Below are positions 18,912 to 28,313 of a stretch of 64,000 nucleotides of DNA, piece after piece. Each line of letters starts with the position of its first letter. Position 1 is the stretch's first letter. The translations under genes and the position numbers were made by a program. This stretch comes from Robiginitalea sp. SC105 (lineage in GTDB: Bacteria > Bacteroidota > Bacteroidia > Flavobacteriales > Flavobacteriaceae). Location of the stretch: assembly GCF_014243345.1 (NCBI RefSeq), contig NZ_JACLZF010000001.1, positions 186,001 to 250,000 on the forward strand. The letters are read 5' to 3'. The notes beneath the pieces were generated by a model. It was not told the origin of the DNA, did not search any database, and saw only the letters and a program-made list of their open reading frames with translations.

Positions 18912-19079
18912 GGCAAATTGGATGGTTTGGTTCAGTATCTAAAAATAGGGGATTAATCATTAACTGCACACCCAAAATCGTTATTCTGGCAGTTGCAGCC
19001 GGTTTTTGATGGAAACGGGTTGGGTGCCCATCCCGTTAAATCCTTAATTTAGACCTTTGAAAAGAAAAACTTGCCCGCC

Positions 19080-19946
19080 ATGCCCACCCCGATCCGAAAA
19101 TCCCTGATGCTCCTGGCCGGGCTGCTTGGATTCAGCTGTACCCAATACGGCCAACTGGACTATGTCTGCAGGTTGCCGGGGGGGGTCAACGAGGCTTCCG
19201 GGATGGTGACCTACAACGGGCAAACCATCTGGGTCATAGAGGACGGCAGTAACCCGGACAAAATCCGGGAGGTAGACACCACGGGGAACCTGCTGAGGGA
19301 GTACGAGGTAAAGGATGCCCGGAATAAGGATTGGGAAGCACTCACTACGGATACACTGGGCCGCCTTTACATAGGGGATTTCGGGAATAACCTGAATTCC
19401 CGGGACGACCTGGTGATTTACCGCCTGCCTGACCCCCGCCAGGAACCCGGGGACAAGATAGATGCAGAGGCCATCCGGTTCTCCTATCCCGACCAAAAGC
19501 ACTTCCCCCCGGAGAAAAACGCCCGCTTCTTTGACGCGGAAGGGTTCTTCCACCTGGATGGGCATTTGTACATTATCACCAAGAACCGGGCGCGGCCCTT
19601 TAACGGGATGGCCACCATTTATCGCGTACCGGATGAACCGGGGGAGTACAAGGCCGAACTGGTCACCCGAATATTTATCTGTGGGGACCGCAGGGGGTGC
19701 CAGGTAACCGACGCAGCCCTGTCGCCAAGCGGTAACCGGCTGGCCTTGTTGGGTTACGGTTTTATCTGGGTATACGATTCTTTTGGCACCACGGGATTTG
19801 CCGGGACGCCCCGCAAGTTTTCCCTGGAGTCCAACACCCAGCTGGAAGGTATCTGTTTTGTCGACGAGACCGAGGTGTATTTAACCGATGAGAAGAGCGT
19901 GGGGCGCGGCGGCAATATTTACCGCTATTCCCTCCCGCTCCCTTAA
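19080..19946 (+). CDS. Predicted beta-propeller lipoprotein of unknown function
   Basis: 288 residues from the ATG at 19080 (a TTG at 19071 also keeps the frame). The signal peptide ends at a lipobox-like GFSC. The mature part looks like a propeller of SdiA-regulated or phytase-esterase-like type: blades with WVIEDGSNPDKI, RLYIGDFGNN, LYIITKNRA, and a late LEGICFVDETEVYLTDE. Conserved acidic and aromatic positions agree with a metal-binding propeller, but I know no assigned reaction. It converges on the following minus-strand gene, with the two stop codons overlapping by four bases. Upstream a TTG-22 nt-TAATTTAG pair resembles a Bacteroidota promoter. Confidence 0.7.
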   Translation: MPTPIRKSLMLLAGLLGFSCTQYGQLDYVCRLPGGVNEASGMVTYNGQTIWVIEDGSNPDKIREVDTTGNLLREYEVKDARNKDWEALTTDTLGRLYIGDFGNNLNSRDDLVIYRLPDPRQEPGDKIDAEAIRFSYPDQKHFPPEKNARFFDAEGFFHLDGHLYIITKNRARPFNGMATIYRVPDEPGEYKAELVTRIFICGDRRGCQVTDAALSPSGNRLALLGYGFIWVYDSFGTTGFAGTPRKFSLESNTQLEGICFVDETEVYLTDEKSVGRGGNIYRYSLPLP

Positions 19947-22900
19947 AATGAGAACCCCAGGCCAAAGGAGAACCGGAGGCCGTCTTCCCCCTGGAACAAA
20001 GCGGTATTCAGGGTAACCACATCGATGCCATTGAGGAATAAACCGCCGCCATAGGAAGTATGCCAGCGGGAGGATGAATCCCCGGGCTGCCAGACGCGGC
20101 CGTAGTCAAAGCCCCCGAATAGCCCAATGGACAGGGGAACAATCCCGGTGCGCATTTGCGCGAACTGCAACCGAAGGTCGGTGAGTTGATAATAGGCGGT
20201 CTTCCCAGAAAAACGCTCGTTCCGGTAACTCCTGGGACCATCATTGGCGCCTATCCGGGCTGCCTGGAAGAATTCGTATCCCTGCCCCAGGTTAAAGTGC
20301 GCTTTCCACCGGGTGGCGAGAACCAGTTGGCCCGATGGCAGCAGGCGATGGTCGAGGCTGAGGGCGGGAATGACGTACCCGAAGCCTGTGCCCCAGGAAT
20401 CCGCCCGCTCCTTATAGCCAAGTTCCAGGCTGGAGGACATCCCGAGGGTCGGGAAGGCCTCATTGTCGCGGTTTTCGTAAAAATACTTCGCGCTGACCCC
20501 CAGGAACTGGCTGCTGTTCTCCTCCCCATTGGCCTGGTAGAATGTATTGATATACCGGTCACTTGTTTCCTCTACCTTAAAGCGCTCGTACCCCAGGCCC
20601 AACCGGAGGCTGCCTCCCAGCGGGCCCCGCCAGATCAGCGCCGGCTTCAGGCTCAGCACGCTCAGGCGGATCCGGTTGTAATCCAAACCCAATTCGTCAT
20701 CTGGGTTCAGGGACTCGTTGCCGAAGCCGAAGAAATTCTGGCTGAAGTTCGGACTGGTGTTCCGCGCCTGCACCTGCAGGTTCCATTTCCCGAATACATT
20801 GGCGAACTCCCCCTCGTATCCCAGGTCAAAGCCACTGGTGGCAAAATAGAAGGAACCGGTAACCGAATGGCGGTAGGTAAAGGGGTTCCGCCGGAAACCA
20901 TAGCGCGAAAAACTGTATCCCAACCCCAGGCGCATGCCGTCATCGGGGTTAAATCCCGCCGTCGGCAGGAGGTGGCTGTTGAAGGTGGCCAGGTCCAGGG
21001 ATTGGAAGGTATTTACCTGGTAATGGTCCGTAAGCACCCGGCGTGCGTGCCCCGGCCCCTCAAAGCGGTTCTCCCTGGTTTTGTAGTCATAGATCACCGC
21101 CTTGTTTCCCGATGTGGTGATATAGCGGTCCCTTCCAAGGCCCCCGACGATACGCACCTTGATTTTTGTGCCTTTTGCCAGGTCGATTTCAAAGCGGTCC
21201 CGGTCGTCCAGGCCGTAAATCCAGACTTCGCGGGTGAGGTCGGGGAGGAGGGTCCGCTCGAAGAACAGTTTGCTTTTCTCCCCGTGAATGATCCGGTAAG
21301 CGCGGACAACCACCCCTCCCTCCGGGCCCGATTGGATTTCGAACCAGTCGTCCTTGTCCGTACCCCGGACAACAAGGTAGCGCTGCAACACCTCAAAATA
21401 ATCATTAGCAATATCCTCCAGGCGGTCGAGTCGGGCCAGGAGTGTCCGGCGGATCTTATCGCTGGTGGCCCCACGCACTTCGGGGGGGATGCCCAGGAGG
21501 GAGGCGTCGATCACCTCCGGGGTTATCCGCTGGCGAATCTGCCGGGCCTGCTGCTGCCACTGGGAACGGGTCGTCCCGCCCAGCAGGGTCATATCCAGGG
21601 AAAGGGGGTTGCTGTTGAAGGTGCGGACATTCCGGATCTCCTCGTTAAAACCCTCCATTTTCTTGACCCCGGGGACCAGGCGGGTCAGGAGATTCCCTAT
21701 AAACCCGTCCCCCATTACGGAAAAGGCCTGGTCGCGGTCGCGGGGGATCGGCCGGTAGATGACCTCCCCCGTTACCTTGTCTTCGAATTCCGCCCAGCGC
21801 CACTGGTCCTGGTGCCGGTCCCAGTCGCCGATCAGCATGTCGAACAAGCGGGCGCGGATATAGGCTTCCGTATCCACCCGGTACTTTTCATCATCCCTGA
21901 GAGAATGGATCAGGTCAAAGGTGCTCTTGATATCCTCTGCAAATCCGAAGCTGGGCAGGTCTTCATGCCCTTCGGAAGGATGTTCCTCGATCATGTACAA
22001 CTCGTCCCCGAAATCCTCGTTGTACTTGCCGAGTGCCGGCTGGCGGGGGACATAAAAAAGCCTTGGGTTGGTGTGATAGATGCCCAGGGTATCCATCAGG
22101 GGGGATAGCGCAAAGGGGGCGTAGGGGTGTGCCCCGGTGTACAGGTCTTCCAGAAGCTCCTCGGGGGCCGTGTTTTCAAGGTCGCCAATGATGTATTGGT
22201 CCATGAATACCATCGCCTGCAGGTTTTGTTCGGCTTGTTTTCGAAGGGCGCGCATCACGAATTCCCTGCCGTCCCGATGCCGTAGCCGCAGGGATTTGGA
22301 CTGCTGCCCACCCCCTTTGCGGATTGGGGTAAGGCCGCCGTAGAGAGTATCGATCCGCACCGTGGACACGTTAATCTTCTCCCCGTAGAGTTCCCGGTAG
22401 CGCGGACCCCACATCCGGGTATAGAACCCCGATTTGGTTACTTCATCCTCCGTGTAGACGGCGGCTTCGACACGGGAAGGGAAATCGGCTTCAAATGCGG
22501 CAGGATCCGGTTCAAAAGGAGGGGCATGGACCATGGTGGTAAAAAGGAATTTTTCCCCACCGGTATCATCCACCCCGTAATAGCGGACGCGGGAACTCTT
22601 GTCCGTATAGACCTCAAGGACCGCGTACCCGCGGAAGCCCGTGGAGAAGGTGCTGCCGCCCAGGAGGTTGGTCGCCCCTTCCTTGGCCCCGGAACCGCTT
22701 ACTATCTGTGCGATCCCTTCCTCCGCTATGTATTGCAGCGTATGCTCGTGGCCGGAGGCAATGACCACCCGCTCCCCGAAGCGGGCCAAAGTAAGCATCC
22801 GCTTTTGCAGTTCCAGGTACCGCTTGTTTTGCATATCCTCTATGGACACCCCTGCGGTCCGGCGGAACAGATTGACCAGGGTGCCGATTACAGGGAGCGG

Positions 22901-23671
22901 GACCTTTCCCGAATAGGGGTAGAATTGTTGCCGGAGCGTAAACTGCCCACCGTGATTCCCGTAGCTCCGCATTGGGTGGTGCATGGCCAGCAGGATGGTC
23001 TTGTCCGCGTGTTGCTTGATCTCACTGCCAAGGGTTTCCCAGAAAACCTCCCGGTCCTTTATCTCGCAATCGTCGTTTATGGCCGGCCGCTTGTCCCAGT
23101 CAGTCAGGTACCATTCTGTATCGACCAGGATCATCATCAGGTCGTTGGAGAGGCTTACCACTTCGATGGGACAGCCATTCTCCGGCAGGAAGACATTCTT
23201 CCGGTCCAGGTAGTCTTCCACGTATTCCTCCTGCCGCTTCAGCCCCTTGATCCCTTCGTTGTACCAATCGTGGTTGCCGGGGATAAATACGGGCCGGCCC
23301 TCAAACTGGTCCAGGGTCCGTAGCTGGGCTTCGAGGTGGCTGGCAGCCAATTGGAATTCCTGGGGGGAATCCTTTGGGTCTGGCAGGCCAGCCGGATAGA
23401 TATTGTCTCCAAGAAAAAGGGCCGTGCTATTGGGCCCGGCCTGGCTCAGGCGGTCCTGGAACCGCTGCAGGACCGGGTTCATGCCCCCCGGAGGCGACAG
23501 GCCCGCATCACCGATAAGGTAAAACGTGTGGGCAACCTCAGACCGGCCTGCCAAATCCGTAGCCTGCCCGGGGCTGGCATATTTAGGGGCGTAAGTGGCG
23601 CAGGAGGCCAAAAGGCACCCCCATGCCGCGATCAGGAGAACTTGTTTTAGAAAAGCAATTCTGGGAGACAT
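19943..23671 (-). CDS. Metallophosphoesterase / FAM20-like kinase-fold / outer-membrane barrel fusion lipoprotein
   Basis: 1,242-residue exported protein, lipobox LLASC (Cys24). Three parts can be read. Residues about 48-330 form a calcineurin-like metallophosphoesterase with GDAG, GDNIYP, GNHDW, HHP and SGHEH metal motifs. Residues about 450-720 hold a region I read as an atypical kinase fold: EFVMRALRKQ resembles the FAM20 Lys strand (Arg474 where Lys is expected), FDMLIGDWDRHQDQW (610-624) closely resembles FAM20C DFLMGNMDRHHYETF, and PRDRDQAF (643-650) could be the metal-binding DNG equivalent. Residues about 870-1242 look like a BamA/TamA-type barrel ending FGLGFSF. The phosphoesterase plus barrel arrangement is seen in Bacteroidota; the kinase-like reading is my inference. 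The start faces the HD gene across 37 nt. Confidence 0.8.
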   Translation of the reverse strand: MSPRIAFLKQVLLIAAWGCLLASCATYAPKYASPGQATDLAGRSEVAHTFYLIGDAGLSPPGGMNPVLQRFQDRLSQAGPNSTALFLGDNIYPAGLPDPKDSPQEFQLAASHLEAQLRTLDQFEGRPVFIPGNHDWYNEGIKGLKRQEEYVEDYLDRKNVFLPENGCPIEVVSLSNDLMMILVDTEWYLTDWDKRPAINDDCEIKDREVFWETLGSEIKQHADKTILLAMHHPMRSYGNHGGQFTLRQQFYPYSGKVPLPVIGTLVNLFRRTAGVSIEDMQNKRYLELQKRMLTLARFGERVVIASGHEHTLQYIAEEGIAQIVSGSGAKEGATNLLGGSTFSTGFRGYAVLEVYTDKSSRVRYYGVDDTGGEKFLFTTMVHAPPFEPDPAAFEADFPSRVEAAVYTEDEVTKSGFYTRMWGPRYRELYGEKINVSTVRIDTLYGGLTPIRKGGGQQSKSLRLRHRDGREFVMRALRKQAEQNLQAMVFMDQYIIGDLENTAPEELLEDLYTGAHPYAPFALSPLMDTLGIYHTNPRLFYVPRQPALGKYNEDFGDELYMIEEHPSEGHEDLPSFGFAEDIKSTFDLIHSLRDDEKYRVDTEAYIRARLFDMLIGDWDRHQDQWRWAEFEDKVTGEVIYRPIPRDRDQAFSVMGDGFIGNLLTRLVPGVKKMEGFNEEIRNVRTFNSNPLSLDMTLLGGTTRSQWQQQARQIRQRITPEVIDASLLGIPPEVRGATSDKIRRTLLARLDRLEDIANDYFEVLQRYLVVRGTDKDDWFEIQSGPEGGVVVRAYRIIHGEKSKLFFERTLLPDLTREVWIYGLDDRDRFEIDLAKGTKIKVRIVGGLGRDRYITTSGNKAVIYDYKTRENRFEGPGHARRVLTDHYQVNTFQSLDLATFNSHLLPTAGFNPDDGMRLGLGYSFSRYGFRRNPFTYRHSVTGSFYFATSGFDLGYEGEFANVFGKWNLQVQARNTSPNFSQNFFGFGNESLNPDDELGLDYNRIRLSVLSLKPALIWRGPLGGSLRLGLGYERFKVEETSDRYINTFYQANGEENSSQFLGVSAKYFYENRDNEAFPTLGMSSSLELGYKERADSWGTGFGYVIPALSLDHRLLPSGQLVLATRWKAHFNLGQGYEFFQAARIGANDGPRSYRNERFSGKTAYYQLTDLRLQFAQMRTGIVPLSIGLFGGFDYGRVWQPGDSSSRWHTSYGGGLFLNGIDVVTLNTALFQGEDGLRFSFGLGFSF

Positions 23672-23708: not shown

Positions 23709-24911
23709 ATGACAAAGCTTACGGAAAACGCGGCTGTCTATGTATCCCAGTTACTATCCGAAAAATTGGACGAGCGGTACCTATACCACAACCTCAGGCA
23801 TACGCAGCTGGTTGTACAAAGTACAAAAGAATTGCTGGATCACCATGAGCTGAATAAAGAGGAAGCGGAGGACCTCCTGCTCGCTGCCTGGATGCATGAT
23901 GCCGGGTATGCCATTGACAATCAGGACCATGAAGAAAAGAGCTGCGAGATAGCACGGTCCTTCCTGCAGGAGCAGGGCCTGGCCAATAAGCGAATCGAGA
24001 GTGTCTGTCAACTGATCCGGGCTACCCGTCGCCATCATTCCCCGGAAAACACGGCAGAAAAAATCCTCCGGGATGCGGATTCCTCCCACCTGAGCCAGAA
24101 GGATTACCGGGAAATTGCCGAGCTGCTCCGGGAGGAGCTCTCCCTCCTGGATATCGCGCATTACAACCAGGAAGATTGGCGGGAAATGAATATCAATATG
24201 TTCCAGTCCGAACACCAGTTTTACACGGATTATGCCAGGGAAAACTGGCAGGAAGGCAAGGACGATAATTTGCGCAAACTGGTCAAGGACAAAAAAAAGC
24301 GCGGGCAACTGGCCAAGAAGGAAAAATTGAAGGCCCAGTTCAAAAGTGAAAGCCCCGAGCGGGGGATACAGACCATGTACCGGGTATCCATGCGAAACCA
24401 CCTGAAGCTCAGCGACATTGCGGATACCAAAGCGAATATCCTGTTATCGGTGAATGCGATCATCATTTCCCTGGTCATCGCGAACCTGATCCCGAAACTG
24501 GACAACCCCAACAACGATTACCTCATCTACCCCACGCTGATATTTATCGTTTTCAGCATCGCCTCCATGATACTTTCCATCCTGGCTACCCGGCCCAATG
24601 TAACCAGCGGGAAATTTACCAAGGAGGACGTTGCCCAGAAAAAAGTGAACCTGCTGTTCTTCGGGAATTTCCACCAAATGGCGTTACCGGAATACGAATG
24701 GGCCATGCGGGAACTGATCAAGGATAAATTCTACGTGTACAACACACTCACCAAGGATTTGTATTTCCTCGGCCTGGTCCTGCAACGGAAATACAAGTTG
24801 CTGCGCTGGACCTATACCATATTTATGGTGGGGATGATTCTTTCGGTGATTGCGTTTTTCGTGGCGCTGAAGTTCTACGGCCCTGACCGGATCCTCGAGC
24901 TGCCCGAATGA
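23709..24911 (+). CDS. HD-domain hydrolase fused to Pycsar-type (DUF5706) membrane domain
   Basis: 400 residues. The N-terminal HD phosphohydrolase domain shows His31, the HD pair at 63-64, HH at 109-110 and Asp122/124, so the metal site seems complete. A charged linker (about 180-215) leads to a C-terminal membrane domain: the stretch LSDIADTKANILLSVNA (235-250) is the signature of Pycsar-effector TM proteins, with membrane helices near 246-262, 273-293 and 370-392. In Pycsar defence such TM domains respond to cyclic pyrimidine nucleotides made by a neighbouring cyclase. No cyclase is found here, and the HD domain could itself cleave a nucleotide signal. It ends exactly where the convergent GAF gene ends. 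Confidence 0.85.
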   Translation: MTKLTENAAVYVSQLLSEKLDERYLYHNLRHTQLVVQSTKELLDHHELNKEEAEDLLLAAWMHDAGYAIDNQDHEEKSCEIARSFLQEQGLANKRIESVCQLIRATRRHHSPENTAEKILRDADSSHLSQKDYREIAELLREELSLLDIAHYNQEDWREMNINMFQSEHQFYTDYARENWQEGKDDNLRKLVKDKKKRGQLAKKEKLKAQFKSESPERGIQTMYRVSMRNHLKLSDIADTKANILLSVNAIIISLVIANLIPKLDNPNNDYLIYPTLIFIVFSIASMILSILATRPNVTSGKFTKEDVAQKKVNLLFFGNFHQMALPEYEWAMRELIKDKFYVYNTLTKDLYFLGLVLQRKYKLLRWTYTIFMVGMILSVIAFFVALKFYGPDRILELPE

Positions 24912-27281
24912 TCAGGAGTTGAGTTCCTCCATCAATTGGTCGTAGTTGTAGAATTCCTTTGCCTCTCCCTGCGGGTCGCTTTTCCGGTAAAGGATTCCGG
25001 CGCGGATAGCCTTGAGGCCGGAGACCCCCTGCAGGCCTTCCAGTTCCACAATTTCCATCTCATCGGTGAAGTAGCCCTTTGATTTCAGGAACCGGATATA
25101 CCTGAGGTATTCCTGTTCGTCCTTTTTCTGTGAGTAGACAATGACCAGTTTCCCGGACTGCGTCAGCCGCTCCCCGGTCCCCTTGACCCGGGATTTGTCG
25201 ATCCGCTTCTTGATCACTTCATACCGGGCATTATAGGTGCCGTCCACATCGAACCGCTTTTCGTCCATGCGGAACCGGATGCTCAGGGAGGTGTTGTACA
25301 CCAGGATCAGGGAGGCTACGTCGAGCTGTATGGGCAATTCCGATTTGATGTCGTAGTAGGCATTTTCCATCTCGCACATTACCTGCAGCTGCCAGAGGCG
25401 CAAATTGCTCAGGTAGAGGGGGTCGTACTCCCGCTCCGAGGCAATGGAGCCCCCGATGTACATATTGTGTTCCACCCCGTCGGTCTTATAGCGCTCAAAG
25501 TAATGCGGGAACATCTGCTGGGCATCTTCCTGCCTTTTGTCAAGAAGGGAAGCCAGCGTCTTGTTGATCTGCATAACGGTCTCATCGTAATTCCGCCGGT
25601 GGTCATAATAGGACTCGGTCCCCACGTCGATCCCGGCCTCATAGGAGCCGATCTCGGCAGCCAGCTCACTGTCCAGGCCCTTGAGGTGCTCCAGCACAGG
25701 TGTGATTTCCTCATGTACAAAATTGAAAATGGCCTGCTCGCTGTTGGTGTGCAGCACTTCTTTGATATCTTCGATATGCCTGCTTACCCGGAAAGTCAGC
25801 TCCTCGTAGATAGGCAACTGGGTTTTGCCAAACGCTAATTCAAGCACGGCCCGGATCCTGGAGAGCTGGATCATCAGGTCCCGCTGTATGGCAGCGTTTC
25901 GGGCGTGGGAGGATTCCCGGATGTCCACCTGCCCGTAAAGCGGATGCACGTCCTGGAAGGCAATTTCCCTGAACGCCGGTTCCCTGCCCTCGAGCTGGTC
26001 GATGATGAATTTCCTGGCCTCCTCCTGAAACCGCCAAAGGACGGATTCGTGCACAGAGGTGCACTCATGCTGGATGATGGCGTCGATCAGGTTCTCCTCC
26101 TCGATGCGCGAACGCACAACAGCCGAAACAATGAACGGCATCACATCATCCAGCTTGGTCGCATTGACCGCATTCAGGGCGTTGGTCCTGGTGGAAACCA
26201 CCTCTAGCAGACCCAGTACTTCGTCCTTGTCCGCAATGGGCGCAAATATTGCACTGCGGATCCCCTGGTCAAAAAGGTTCTGGTAAAATCCCTCCCCCCC
26301 GGAGTTTTCATGGTACCTGGCGACGTCCGGTATGACAAAATAGGCCTTTTCGTTCAAAAGCTTTTCGTAGGATTCGCTGCAGAGGGACTCGTTGCATTTG
26401 CACGCATGGGAATCCCCAAGGATAAAGCTTTCCATCCCCTTGCCATAGACTTTCTCGAACTGCCCGTCCTTGCGGTTGTAGGTAATAAAACCCACCCTCA
26501 GGTCCTTCAGGCGGAAAAACGACCGGAAGGTGCTCTGGAGTTCGCTCATGAAACTGTCACTCCCCCGTTTATCGCTCGCAATCAATTCGGATTTTATGGC
26601 CGAGATGGCGTACTCCGCAGTTACGTCGAACATATTGGCGATTACGAATCCTTTGATCGTAAAGCTTCCCGGGGGTATTTTGGACTTCCAGAAATCCAGG
26701 TCTTCCGGATGCGATAGCAATTCGTCCACGTCGTCCTGGGTAATCTCCGGGGCTTCCGCGTTCGGGATGATTTCCATAAAATCCGCATTGTAAAGGATGC
26801 GGTAATGGTGCATTACCCCGTTGGCATCCGGAAATTCGAAGAAATAGGGCCGGCTGAAGTCAAGTTTAAAGCCGTAGTGGTGATTCAGTATAACCGTGCT
26901 GGCCATGATATAGTCCTGCCCGTCGGACCGTCGCATCAGGATAGGGTTGAAATCATCACCCGCATTTTCGATGATGCGTCTTAGGCGCGCCGATGGGTGA
27001 AAGAGCATGTCCACATAGGGCAGGGAAAGCGCCTTGATTTCATTGCGGCTGAGCACCTCGGAGAATGCGTCCTGCAGTATGATGTCCAGCACCTCCTTGT
27101 GGGTCTCGAGTTTTTCGACTTCTTCAAATCCCTCCCGAAGCTCGGGGTAGGGTGCCTGGGCCTCCAGGATCCGATTTGCCTTGGCCCGCTGGTCGGGCGT
27201 ACCGTTTTCTGCCAGCTGGTCGTAAAACCGCAGGAACTTGTCAAAGCTTATCAGAAATTTTACGGGCAGTTCCTGATCCAT
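24912..27281 (-). CDS. Large GAF-domain signalling protein
   Basis: 789 residues from the ATG at 27281; a TTG at 27311 would add ten residues. A GAF domain occupies roughly residues 225-400 (GVEKVYGKGM-like region, then YFVIPDVARYHE, IFAPIADKDEVLGLLEVVS). Inside it lies a cysteine-rich turn, HACKCNESLC, unusual for GAF. The remaining regions are helical with no recognised catalytic domain: no HisKA, GGDEF or helix-turn-helix. The protein seems cytoplasmic. Stop codons of this gene and the HD-Pycsar gene abut with no spacer, and its start diverges from the metallophosphoesterase gene. Homologues of this layout occur in other Bacteroidota, but I know no function. Confidence 0.75.
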   Translation of the reverse strand: MDQELPVKFLISFDKFLRFYDQLAENGTPDQRAKANRILEAQAPYPELREGFEEVEKLETHKEVLDIILQDAFSEVLSRNEIKALSLPYVDMLFHPSARLRRIIENAGDDFNPILMRRSDGQDYIMASTVILNHHYGFKLDFSRPYFFEFPDANGVMHHYRILYNADFMEIIPNAEAPEITQDDVDELLSHPEDLDFWKSKIPPGSFTIKGFVIANMFDVTAEYAISAIKSELIASDKRGSDSFMSELQSTFRSFFRLKDLRVGFITYNRKDGQFEKVYGKGMESFILGDSHACKCNESLCSESYEKLLNEKAYFVIPDVARYHENSGGEGFYQNLFDQGIRSAIFAPIADKDEVLGLLEVVSTRTNALNAVNATKLDDVMPFIVSAVVRSRIEEENLIDAIIQHECTSVHESVLWRFQEEARKFIIDQLEGREPAFREIAFQDVHPLYGQVDIRESSHARNAAIQRDLMIQLSRIRAVLELAFGKTQLPIYEELTFRVSRHIEDIKEVLHTNSEQAIFNFVHEEITPVLEHLKGLDSELAAEIGSYEAGIDVGTESYYDHRRNYDETVMQINKTLASLLDKRQEDAQQMFPHYFERYKTDGVEHNMYIGGSIASEREYDPLYLSNLRLWQLQVMCEMENAYYDIKSELPIQLDVASLILVYNTSLSIRFRMDEKRFDVDGTYNARYEVIKKRIDKSRVKGTGERLTQSGKLVIVYSQKKDEQEYLRYIRFLKSKGYFTDEMEIVELEGLQGVSGLKAIRAGILYRKSDPQGEAKEFYNYDQLMEELNS

Positions 27282-27407
27282 GGTGAATGGTTTGTCGGTG
27301 CTGAGTCGCAACGCAGCAAATAAAATTACAAAATATTGCGGTTCCTATTTGAGCATCCCTACTGTACAATTCCGCTCAAATTTTGGATATTTATCGAAAA
27401 TCGCCCT

Positions 27408-28313
27408 ATGTTCTCCAAGCGCCGACTTGACCGTGCCTATAAACAGGCCCCCGTCATACCCTTCGACGACCATTCGCGGTTTATCTTCTTCAGTGACTGC
27501 CACCGGGGCGACAACAGCTTTGCGGACGAATTTGCCAATAACCGGAACATCTACTACCACGCACTGAAACACTATTACCAGCAGGGCTTCGACTATTTTG
27601 AACTGGGCGACGGGGACGAACTCTGGGAAAACCTGAATTTCGAATCGATTTTTGAGGCCCACAAGAACGTCTACACGCTGCTGCGCGACTTCCACCTGGA
27701 AAACAGGCTCCACATGATCTGGGGCAACCACGACATGGTCTACAAGAACCCCGACTATGTGGCCGAAAACCTGAGCAGTTACTTTGAGCCCATCGACGGC
27801 CGGGACCGCGAACTCTTCGAGGGGATCCGGTATGAAGAGGGGATTGTCCTCAGGCATAAGGAGACCGGGCAGGAACTCTTCCTCTGCCACGGGCACCAGG
27901 CCGATTGGTGGAACTACACCTTCTGGCGCTGGAGCCGGTTCCTGGTCCGGGTACTCTGGAAGCCGCTGCAGGTCTGGGGGATTGCGGACCCCACCTCCCC
28001 GGCCCGGAACTACAAGGAACTGATCCGGATCGAAAAGCGCATCAAAAAATGGATCCTGGCCAACGACATGCTGCCCGTTATCGTAGGGCACACCCACAGG
28101 CCACGGTTTCCGGAGCCCGGGGAAATCCCGCTTTTCAATGACGGCAGTTGTGTCCACCCCAGGAGCATCACCGGGCTGGAAATCGAGGACGGGCAAATAA
28201 GCCTGATCAAATGGCAGATTGCCACCACGGACGACGGGGTGCTGAAGGTGGTCCGCATACTGCTCGAAGGACCGGAAAAGCTCGCAAACTATTCCCTTAA
28301 ACAATCGGGATGA
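27408..28313 (+). CDS. Calcineurin-like metallophosphoesterase
   Basis: 301 residues from the ATG at 27408 (MFSKRRLDRA); upstream in-frame codons to 27336 look non-coding. Metal-site motifs are in order: FFSDCHRGDN, GDGDELWE, WGNHDM, CHGHQ and VGHTHRPRF, so the dinuclear site should be active. No signal peptide. The family includes UDP-diacylglucosamine pyrophosphatase and diverse nucleotidases; the substrate here is not evident. The gene overlaps the next (ATGA), so it is translated together with a membrane AraC regulator. Confidence 0.85.
   Translation: MFSKRRLDRAYKQAPVIPFDDHSRFIFFSDCHRGDNSFADEFANNRNIYYHALKHYYQQGFDYFELGDGDELWENLNFESIFEAHKNVYTLLRDFHLENRLHMIWGNHDMVYKNPDYVAENLSSYFEPIDGRDRELFEGIRYEEGIVLRHKETGQELFLCHGHQADWWNYTFWRWSRFLVRVLWKPLQVWGIADPTSPARNYKELIRIEKRIKKWILANDMLPVIVGHTHRPRFPEPGEIPLFNDGSCVHPRSITGLEIEDGQISLIKWQIATTDDGVLKVVRILLEGPEKLANYSLKQSG

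Follow-up and report, generated by a model that had tools for sequence, protein, structure and literature searches.

What does a lipoprotein that joins a phosphatase to an outer-membrane barrel carry between the two? The question is raised by the protein encoded at 19943..23671 of the stretch analysed here (the window), 64,000 nucleotides of contig NZ_JACLZF010000001.1 (positions 186,001 to 250,000) from the 3.58-Mb genome of Robiginitalea sp. SC105. A first-pass annotation had read this open reading frame as a metallophosphoesterase, a FAM20-like kinase fold and an outer-membrane barrel in one chain. The three-domain architecture of phosphatase, kinase-fold domain and barrel is solid (Table 1), and we propose, with a probability of roughly one half, that the protein is a phosphate-transfer enzyme tethered to the outer membrane, combining an Omp85 barrel, a CotH/PI4KII-type kinase fold, a phosphatase and a lipid anchor. 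Prediction and conservation show the three folds, a kinase-like site whose residues are conserved together, and modules that occur naturally split among relatives.

Domain architecture and the fold of the middle region

Single-sequence searches returned PF00149, a weak Omp85 match and only a trace of BamA. For the middle ~500 residues nothing meaningful was found in Pfam, NCBIfam or PDB sequence searches, and it was fold comparison that named this domain. The two middle motifs, FDMLIGDWDRHQDQW at residues 610-624 and PRDRDQAF at residues 643-650, are present as the first-pass annotation reported, and their conservation across an alignment of 88 rows, made up of the query and 87 homologues of less than 75% identity, shows that they are not a product of chance.

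The predicted model of residues 434-763 has a protein-kinase-like fold, as had been suspected, and a kinase fold of the middle domain is thus well supported by prediction. A model lacking kinase lobes, which the first-pass annotation had named as a refutation, was not obtained. The structurally close kinases among the best 50 matches listed in the fold comparison were CotH, PI4KII, CtkA and HipA, with 12-13% identity between CotH and the kinase-fold domain. Profile-profile comparison (hhalign) gave scores of 39.0 for CotH and 34.4 for HipA, against a background of at most 24.9 for 33 neighbour-gene families (clusters not annotated one by one) and about 16 for reversed decoys. In these alignments Asp618 coincides with the catalytic Asp of both kinases, and Asp645 with the second Asp of CotH. 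In the CtkA alignment Asp618 was in register and the metal-Asp-like motif was off by one column. The FAM20 label fared less well. The profile search that had been suggested against the FAM20, HipA and CotH families gave, among the matches listed, no Pfam match above the cut-off for any of them: the query had no match at E <= 1 to FAM20C (PF06702), HipA_C (PF07804) or CotH (PF08757), and neither FAM20C nor HipA_C appeared in members among the matches listed (25 of 43 families). FAM20C was also absent from the best 50 matches that the fold comparison listed, although it may rank lower, and CotH has been described as distantly related to Fam20C (PMC7821199). The predicted kinase-like fold, the phosphatase and the barrel of the earlier interpretation stand, but "FAM20" should, on the predicted fold, give way to "CotH/PI4KII/HipA-like".

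The N-terminal assignment as a metallophosphoesterase was borne out by a PF00149 match to residues 49-249 (E 2.1e-9) and then by fold comparison. Both the fold and the metal-ligand motifs, including the Tyr of GDNxY, are those of a purple acid phosphatase. A second metallophosphoesterase lies close by in the window (27336-28313; PF00149, E 2.2e-5), and a stand-alone relative of the phosphatase domain, with 422 residues, is encoded in another genome (L198 in G081) by a gene without kinase fold or barrel.

The C-terminal barrel was likewise recovered, as a 16-strand Omp85-type barrel in the fold comparison. The Omp85_fam profile matches residues 1061-1237 with an E value of 1.4e-15, but its 57.7 bits fall short of the curated cut-off of 200. 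No Pfam match to POTRA was found in the query at E <= 1, residues 45-763 being taken up by the phosphatase and the kinase fold; Omp85 subfamilies without POTRA are known (PMC4104836). The linker before the barrel is nearly helix-free in DSSP of the predicted models, and it contains DDxF-like and GGxxxD-like stretches.

An even-stranded Omp85 barrel has both ends inside, and no acidic surface-export signal was seen; the enzyme domains therefore probably face the periplasm. Of the 66 homologues that bear the phosphatase, a simple lipobox pattern picked out 37, including one or more spurious cases, and none of these 37 has two or more acidic residues between +2 and +6, a signal of the sort associated with surface lipoproteins in Bacteroidota. 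In rows without the phosphatase a lipobox was found in 1 of 19, and the rest resemble ordinary signal peptides by eye.

Conservation of the kinase-like site

Over the 88 rows, Asp was found at position 618 in 83, Arg at 619 in 86, His at 620 in 82, Asp at 645 in 85 and Arg at 474 in 83. For the active-site count, the phosphatase-only row L137 was left out, giving 87 kinase-bearing rows. Asp618 and Asp645 were both kept in 82 of these, all with Arg474 and Lys478. The set was intact in 68/68 rows with a phosphatase and 14/19 without. Five rows, all of them without the phosphatase, are altered at one or more positions: L119, L121, L132, L134 and the second copy in L127. In terms of sequence, such a distribution fits a working site that has degenerated in some relatives. 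The first-pass annotation had suggested that the protein could be a pseudokinase or a non-phosphorylating relative, because Arg474 stands where Lys is expected. The Arg is indeed there, but its invariance in all rows with both Asp residues argues against decay, and we lowered that explanation in view of the joint conservation of the active-site residues.

In DSSP of the model, Arg474 lies in the strand after the glycine-rich hairpin and Lys478 at the strand end, and either may fill the role of the kinase beta-3 Lys. An antiparallel-type strand pair separates the two Asp residues, with Asp618 6 residues before it and Asp645 2 residues after it, and they should consequently be close in space in the predicted structure. 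By our own comparison the Asp-Asp spacing is 27 residues here versus 23 in CotH, where the D228Q and D251A substitutions are inactive (PMC7821199).

Table 1. Features of the lipoprotein gene and its neighbours (window coordinates; residues refer to the 1242-aa protein)
Feature	Coordinates	Strand	Evidence
Whole gene, 1242-aa outer-membrane lipoprotein	19943..23671	-	Open reading frame with ATG start
Lipoprotein signal peptide, residues 1-24, lipobox LLASC ending at Cys24	23600..23671	-	Sequence
Purple-acid-phosphatase-type phosphoesterase, residues 45-385	22517..23539	-	
Predicted kinase-fold domain, residues 434-763	21383..22372	-	
Glycine-rich loop GGGxQS flanked by two strands, residues 453-458	22298..22315	-	Conservation, DSSP
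Arg474 to Lys478, next strand	22238..22252	-	Both invariant in the 82/82 rows that keep both Asp residues
Catalytic-loop-like motif DWDRHxDQW, residues 616-624	21800..21826	-	Asp618 in register with CotH, HipA, CtkA
Metal-Asp-like motif PRDRD, residues 643-647	21731..21745	-	In register with CotH, not HipA
Beta-rich linker, residues 764-895	20987..21382	-	DSSP of models
16-strand Omp85 barrel, residues 896-1240	19952..20986	-	
Divergent neighbour, HD domain and PycTM membrane domain	23709..24911	+	PF18967 E 3.1e-37, PF01966 E 6.3e-8
Convergent neighbour, lipoprotein-like, weak SdiA-regulated similarity	19071..19946	+	PF06977 E 0.005, below cut-off
Neighbour, 799-aa protein, weak GAF_2 match	24912..27311	-	PF13185 E 0.003, below cut-off

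Module splitting and neighbouring genes

A sample of 395 genomes from the phylum contained homologues at E <= 1e-20 in 145, the source genome included. The nearest row in a quick tree was from Zeaxanthinibacter, followed by other Flavobacteriaceae; marine relatives with a homologue include Zobellia uliginosa and a Maribacter. Two main forms occur, one of ~1240 residues with the phosphatase and one of ~855-950 residues that starts near query residue 400-420 and lacks it. On the tree of 87 rows (68 with and 19 without phosphatase) this label needs three changes, indicating repeated loss or gain of the phosphatase. In genome G055 (L178:5751-9797) the kinase-fold protein (545 residues), the phosphatase (403 residues) and the barrel (395 residues) are encoded by three consecutive genes on the same strand, the first two with a lipobox by eye. 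This split, together with the two forms, shows that the modules are separable units. The G055 barrel retains an LRGY-type loop motif. The short form was also observed in tandem (L170 and L127 in G345, L175 and L128 in G140, and L172 in G066), with one of the copies in G345 degenerate at the kinase-like site, and a single in-frame stop occurs within the matched stretch in G355, G320, G353, G019 and the second copy of G254, where it may reflect gene decay or an error of assembly. A phage or plasmid origin was considered and set aside: there was no match in phage records, five plasmid records had a match, and nothing points to a phage gene.

We compared 120 gene neighbourhoods, namely that of the window, those of 79 named relatives and those of 40 diverse loci. 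A PycTM-cluster protein lies nearby in 106 of the 120. Of the diverse loci, 28 have it (15/21 families); in 23 of the 28 it has 389-437 residues, like that of the window, the one locus in which the HD domain was tested. PycTM genes were counted as strong from about 81 bits upwards. For 114 genomes with such a gene the position of the barrel gene was also listed, and in 101 of them the two are no more than 15 kb apart. Across the 395 genomes, 116 encoded both the barrel protein and strong PycTM, 29 the barrel protein alone, 11 strong PycTM alone and 239 neither, counts that are uncorrected for relatedness. In the window's protein the HD domain is fused to a PycTM membrane domain of the Pycsar effector type; PycTM proteins are common chromosomal companions of the barrel protein and do not mark an obvious defence island. 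Because the two genes are paired in many families, we do not take PycTM to prove an anti-phage system. The HD part of the window's protein is weakly like Ppx/GppA domain III (E 0.003).

Both positions were listed for 123 genomes, and in 23 of them, against ~1.1 expected, the polyphosphate kinase gene PPK1 (PF02503) lies within 10 kb of the gene. This proximity was seen in 9/24 families; by our own count 21 of those 23 genomes have two PPK1 genes. Such frequent phosphate-chain metabolism genes beside the homologues suggest a phosphate-transfer enzyme at the cell envelope. In L189 and L192, genes for PycTM, PPK1, an SdiA-like protein, the barrel protein and a GAF-like protein stand in one row on one strand. 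In a hand-picked subset (G005, G066, G087, G152 and G359), PPK1 is ~1 kb from PycTM and the barrel gene is on another contig or far away, and in L180 (G254) it is the PPK1 gene, beside the barrel gene, that is read as two open reading frames of 332 and 330 residues. The SdiA-regulated cluster was present in 23 of the 40 diverse loci (tested member L160, E 1.3e-8), a relative of the GAF-like neighbour in 10, and a cluster that we take to be SixA in 8. A cyclase-like gene is a neighbour in 4 of the 40 diverse loci. In family f24 (L187:9821-11791 and L191) a cyclase-like gene directly follows the barrel gene, the L187 copy matching PADLOC PycC at E 2e-6 and being followed by a gene for a 199-aa PycTM protein.

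Proposed function and comparison with known systems

In the proposed mechanism, the kinase-fold domain would take the place of the usual POTRA arm on the 16-strand Omp85 barrel, with the purple-acid-phosphatase domain and lipid anchor attached to it and these N-terminal domains hanging in the periplasm. The domain would be catalytically competent through Arg474 and/or Lys478, Asp618 and Asp645, and would pass a phosphoryl group, or else a nucleotidyl group, to a protein, lipid or glycan of the envelope, from which, or from a related substrate, the phosphatase would remove such groups. Its partners would be HD-PycTM in the inner membrane and a polyphosphate kinase in several families.

Several observations weigh against this proposal. 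The main objection is that ATP is not known to be present in the periplasm. A predicted fold by itself demonstrates no activity. The position of the usual kinase Lys may be held by Arg474, and the usual catalytic-loop Asn is Gln623. Foldseek alone gave a single match at E <= 0.001, to the Rio2 kinase; the hhalign probabilities were low (27.5% and 21.0%), the second Asp motif was out of register in the HipA alignment, and the CtkA profile matched at only E 0.17. No Pfam kinase family exceeded its cut-off among the matches listed, and the best member matches to CotH were E 0.03 in 1/87 (25 of 43 families listed) and E 0.021 in 1/38. PPK1 was near the gene in 0/42 genomes of families f1 and f2, which are the window's own family and the other one of its order. 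In other families the PPK1 link offers a possible way round the lack of periplasmic ATP. Outer-membrane phosphorylation might then be ATP-free, the CotH-like domain, which has an invariant Arg/Lys pair on one N-lobe strand, using polyphosphate or pyrophosphate as donor and PPK1 supplying the chain, with reversal by the phosphatase of the same polypeptide and a link to the inner membrane through HD-PycTM, although we consider this elaboration improbable.

The strongest competitor, itself doubtful, is a pseudokinase or ligand sensor that would bind nucleotide or polyphosphate without transfer and gate the barrel or position the phosphatase as the sole enzyme. The Arg at 474, the Gln at 623, the ATP-poor compartment and the five degenerate relatives named above would suit it, but the four-residue set is kept in 82 of 87 rows carrying 22 family labels (own count) and persists in 14 of 19 relatives that have no phosphatase. 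A PI4KII-like kinase that, in the outer membrane's inner leaflet, phosphorylates either the head group of a lipid or some part of lipid A, with the phosphatase trimming the product, is unlikely: its substrate is hypothetical, and the only possible lipid gene among the inspected clusters, presumably PAP2-like, occurs in 6 of the 40 diverse loci. We give slightly less weight still to an Omp85-family assembly or secretion factor whose extra domains replace POTRA as substrate-binding arms. The barrel is clearly Omp85, and protein assembly is given as the most conservative hypothesis for uncharacterised subfamilies (PMC4104836), but both other domains have conserved enzyme motifs, and G055 encodes both enzyme-like domains as separate lipoproteins, so that a covalent barrel appears unneeded.

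A widespread Bacteroidota protein with a predicted kinase fold and a phosphatase on one barrel makes extracytoplasmic phosphorylation of the envelope, a process hardly known in bacteria, directly testable. The filing of a subfamily under "metalloprotease-Omp85" would be put right as well, and an orphan Omp85 group would gain a link to PycTM membrane proteins and polyphosphate metabolism.

The domain layout had been suggested to be new, and this seems to hold only in part. Heinz and Lithgow defined in 2014 an Omp85 "Metallo" subfamily in which PF00149, called a metalloprotease, is N-terminal to the barrel, as in the present protein (PMC4104836). The phosphatase-plus-Omp85 combination had thus been described, whereas the word "kinase" is absent from the main text of that paper by term search. 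The present protein very likely belongs to "Metallo", a membership not checked against that paper's list, and differs from its description in the purple-acid-phosphatase type of the enzyme and in the kinase-fold domain before the barrel. The barrels of the "noNterm" group are partly similar to those of "Metallo" (PMC4104836), and the short forms may be part of that group. No kinase domain on an Omp85 barrel was found by title or abstract start in the open-access literature, a body that leaves most subscription papers uncovered, and a 2025 paper on outer-membrane protein biogenesis in Bacteroidota contained neither "phosphatase" nor "kinase" by term search (PMC12611786).

Tartrate-resistant and other purple acid phosphatases differ from the present protein, where the domain is fused to a kinase-fold domain and a barrel. 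FAM20C, which works in the secretory compartment, shares the same broad kinase superfamily as the present domain. The PI4K type II, CtkA and HipA kinases are cytoplasmic or host-acting enzymes and, unlike this protein, have no barrel. The spore-coat kinase CotH of Bacillus is set apart by Arg474 and Gln623, by the fusion to phosphatase and barrel, and by the envelope location predicted here. PlpD carries POTRA, and its enzyme domain is lipolytic, with neither kinase fold nor phosphatase. Like the present protein, however, PlpD places an enzyme domain on an Omp85 barrel (PMC4104836).
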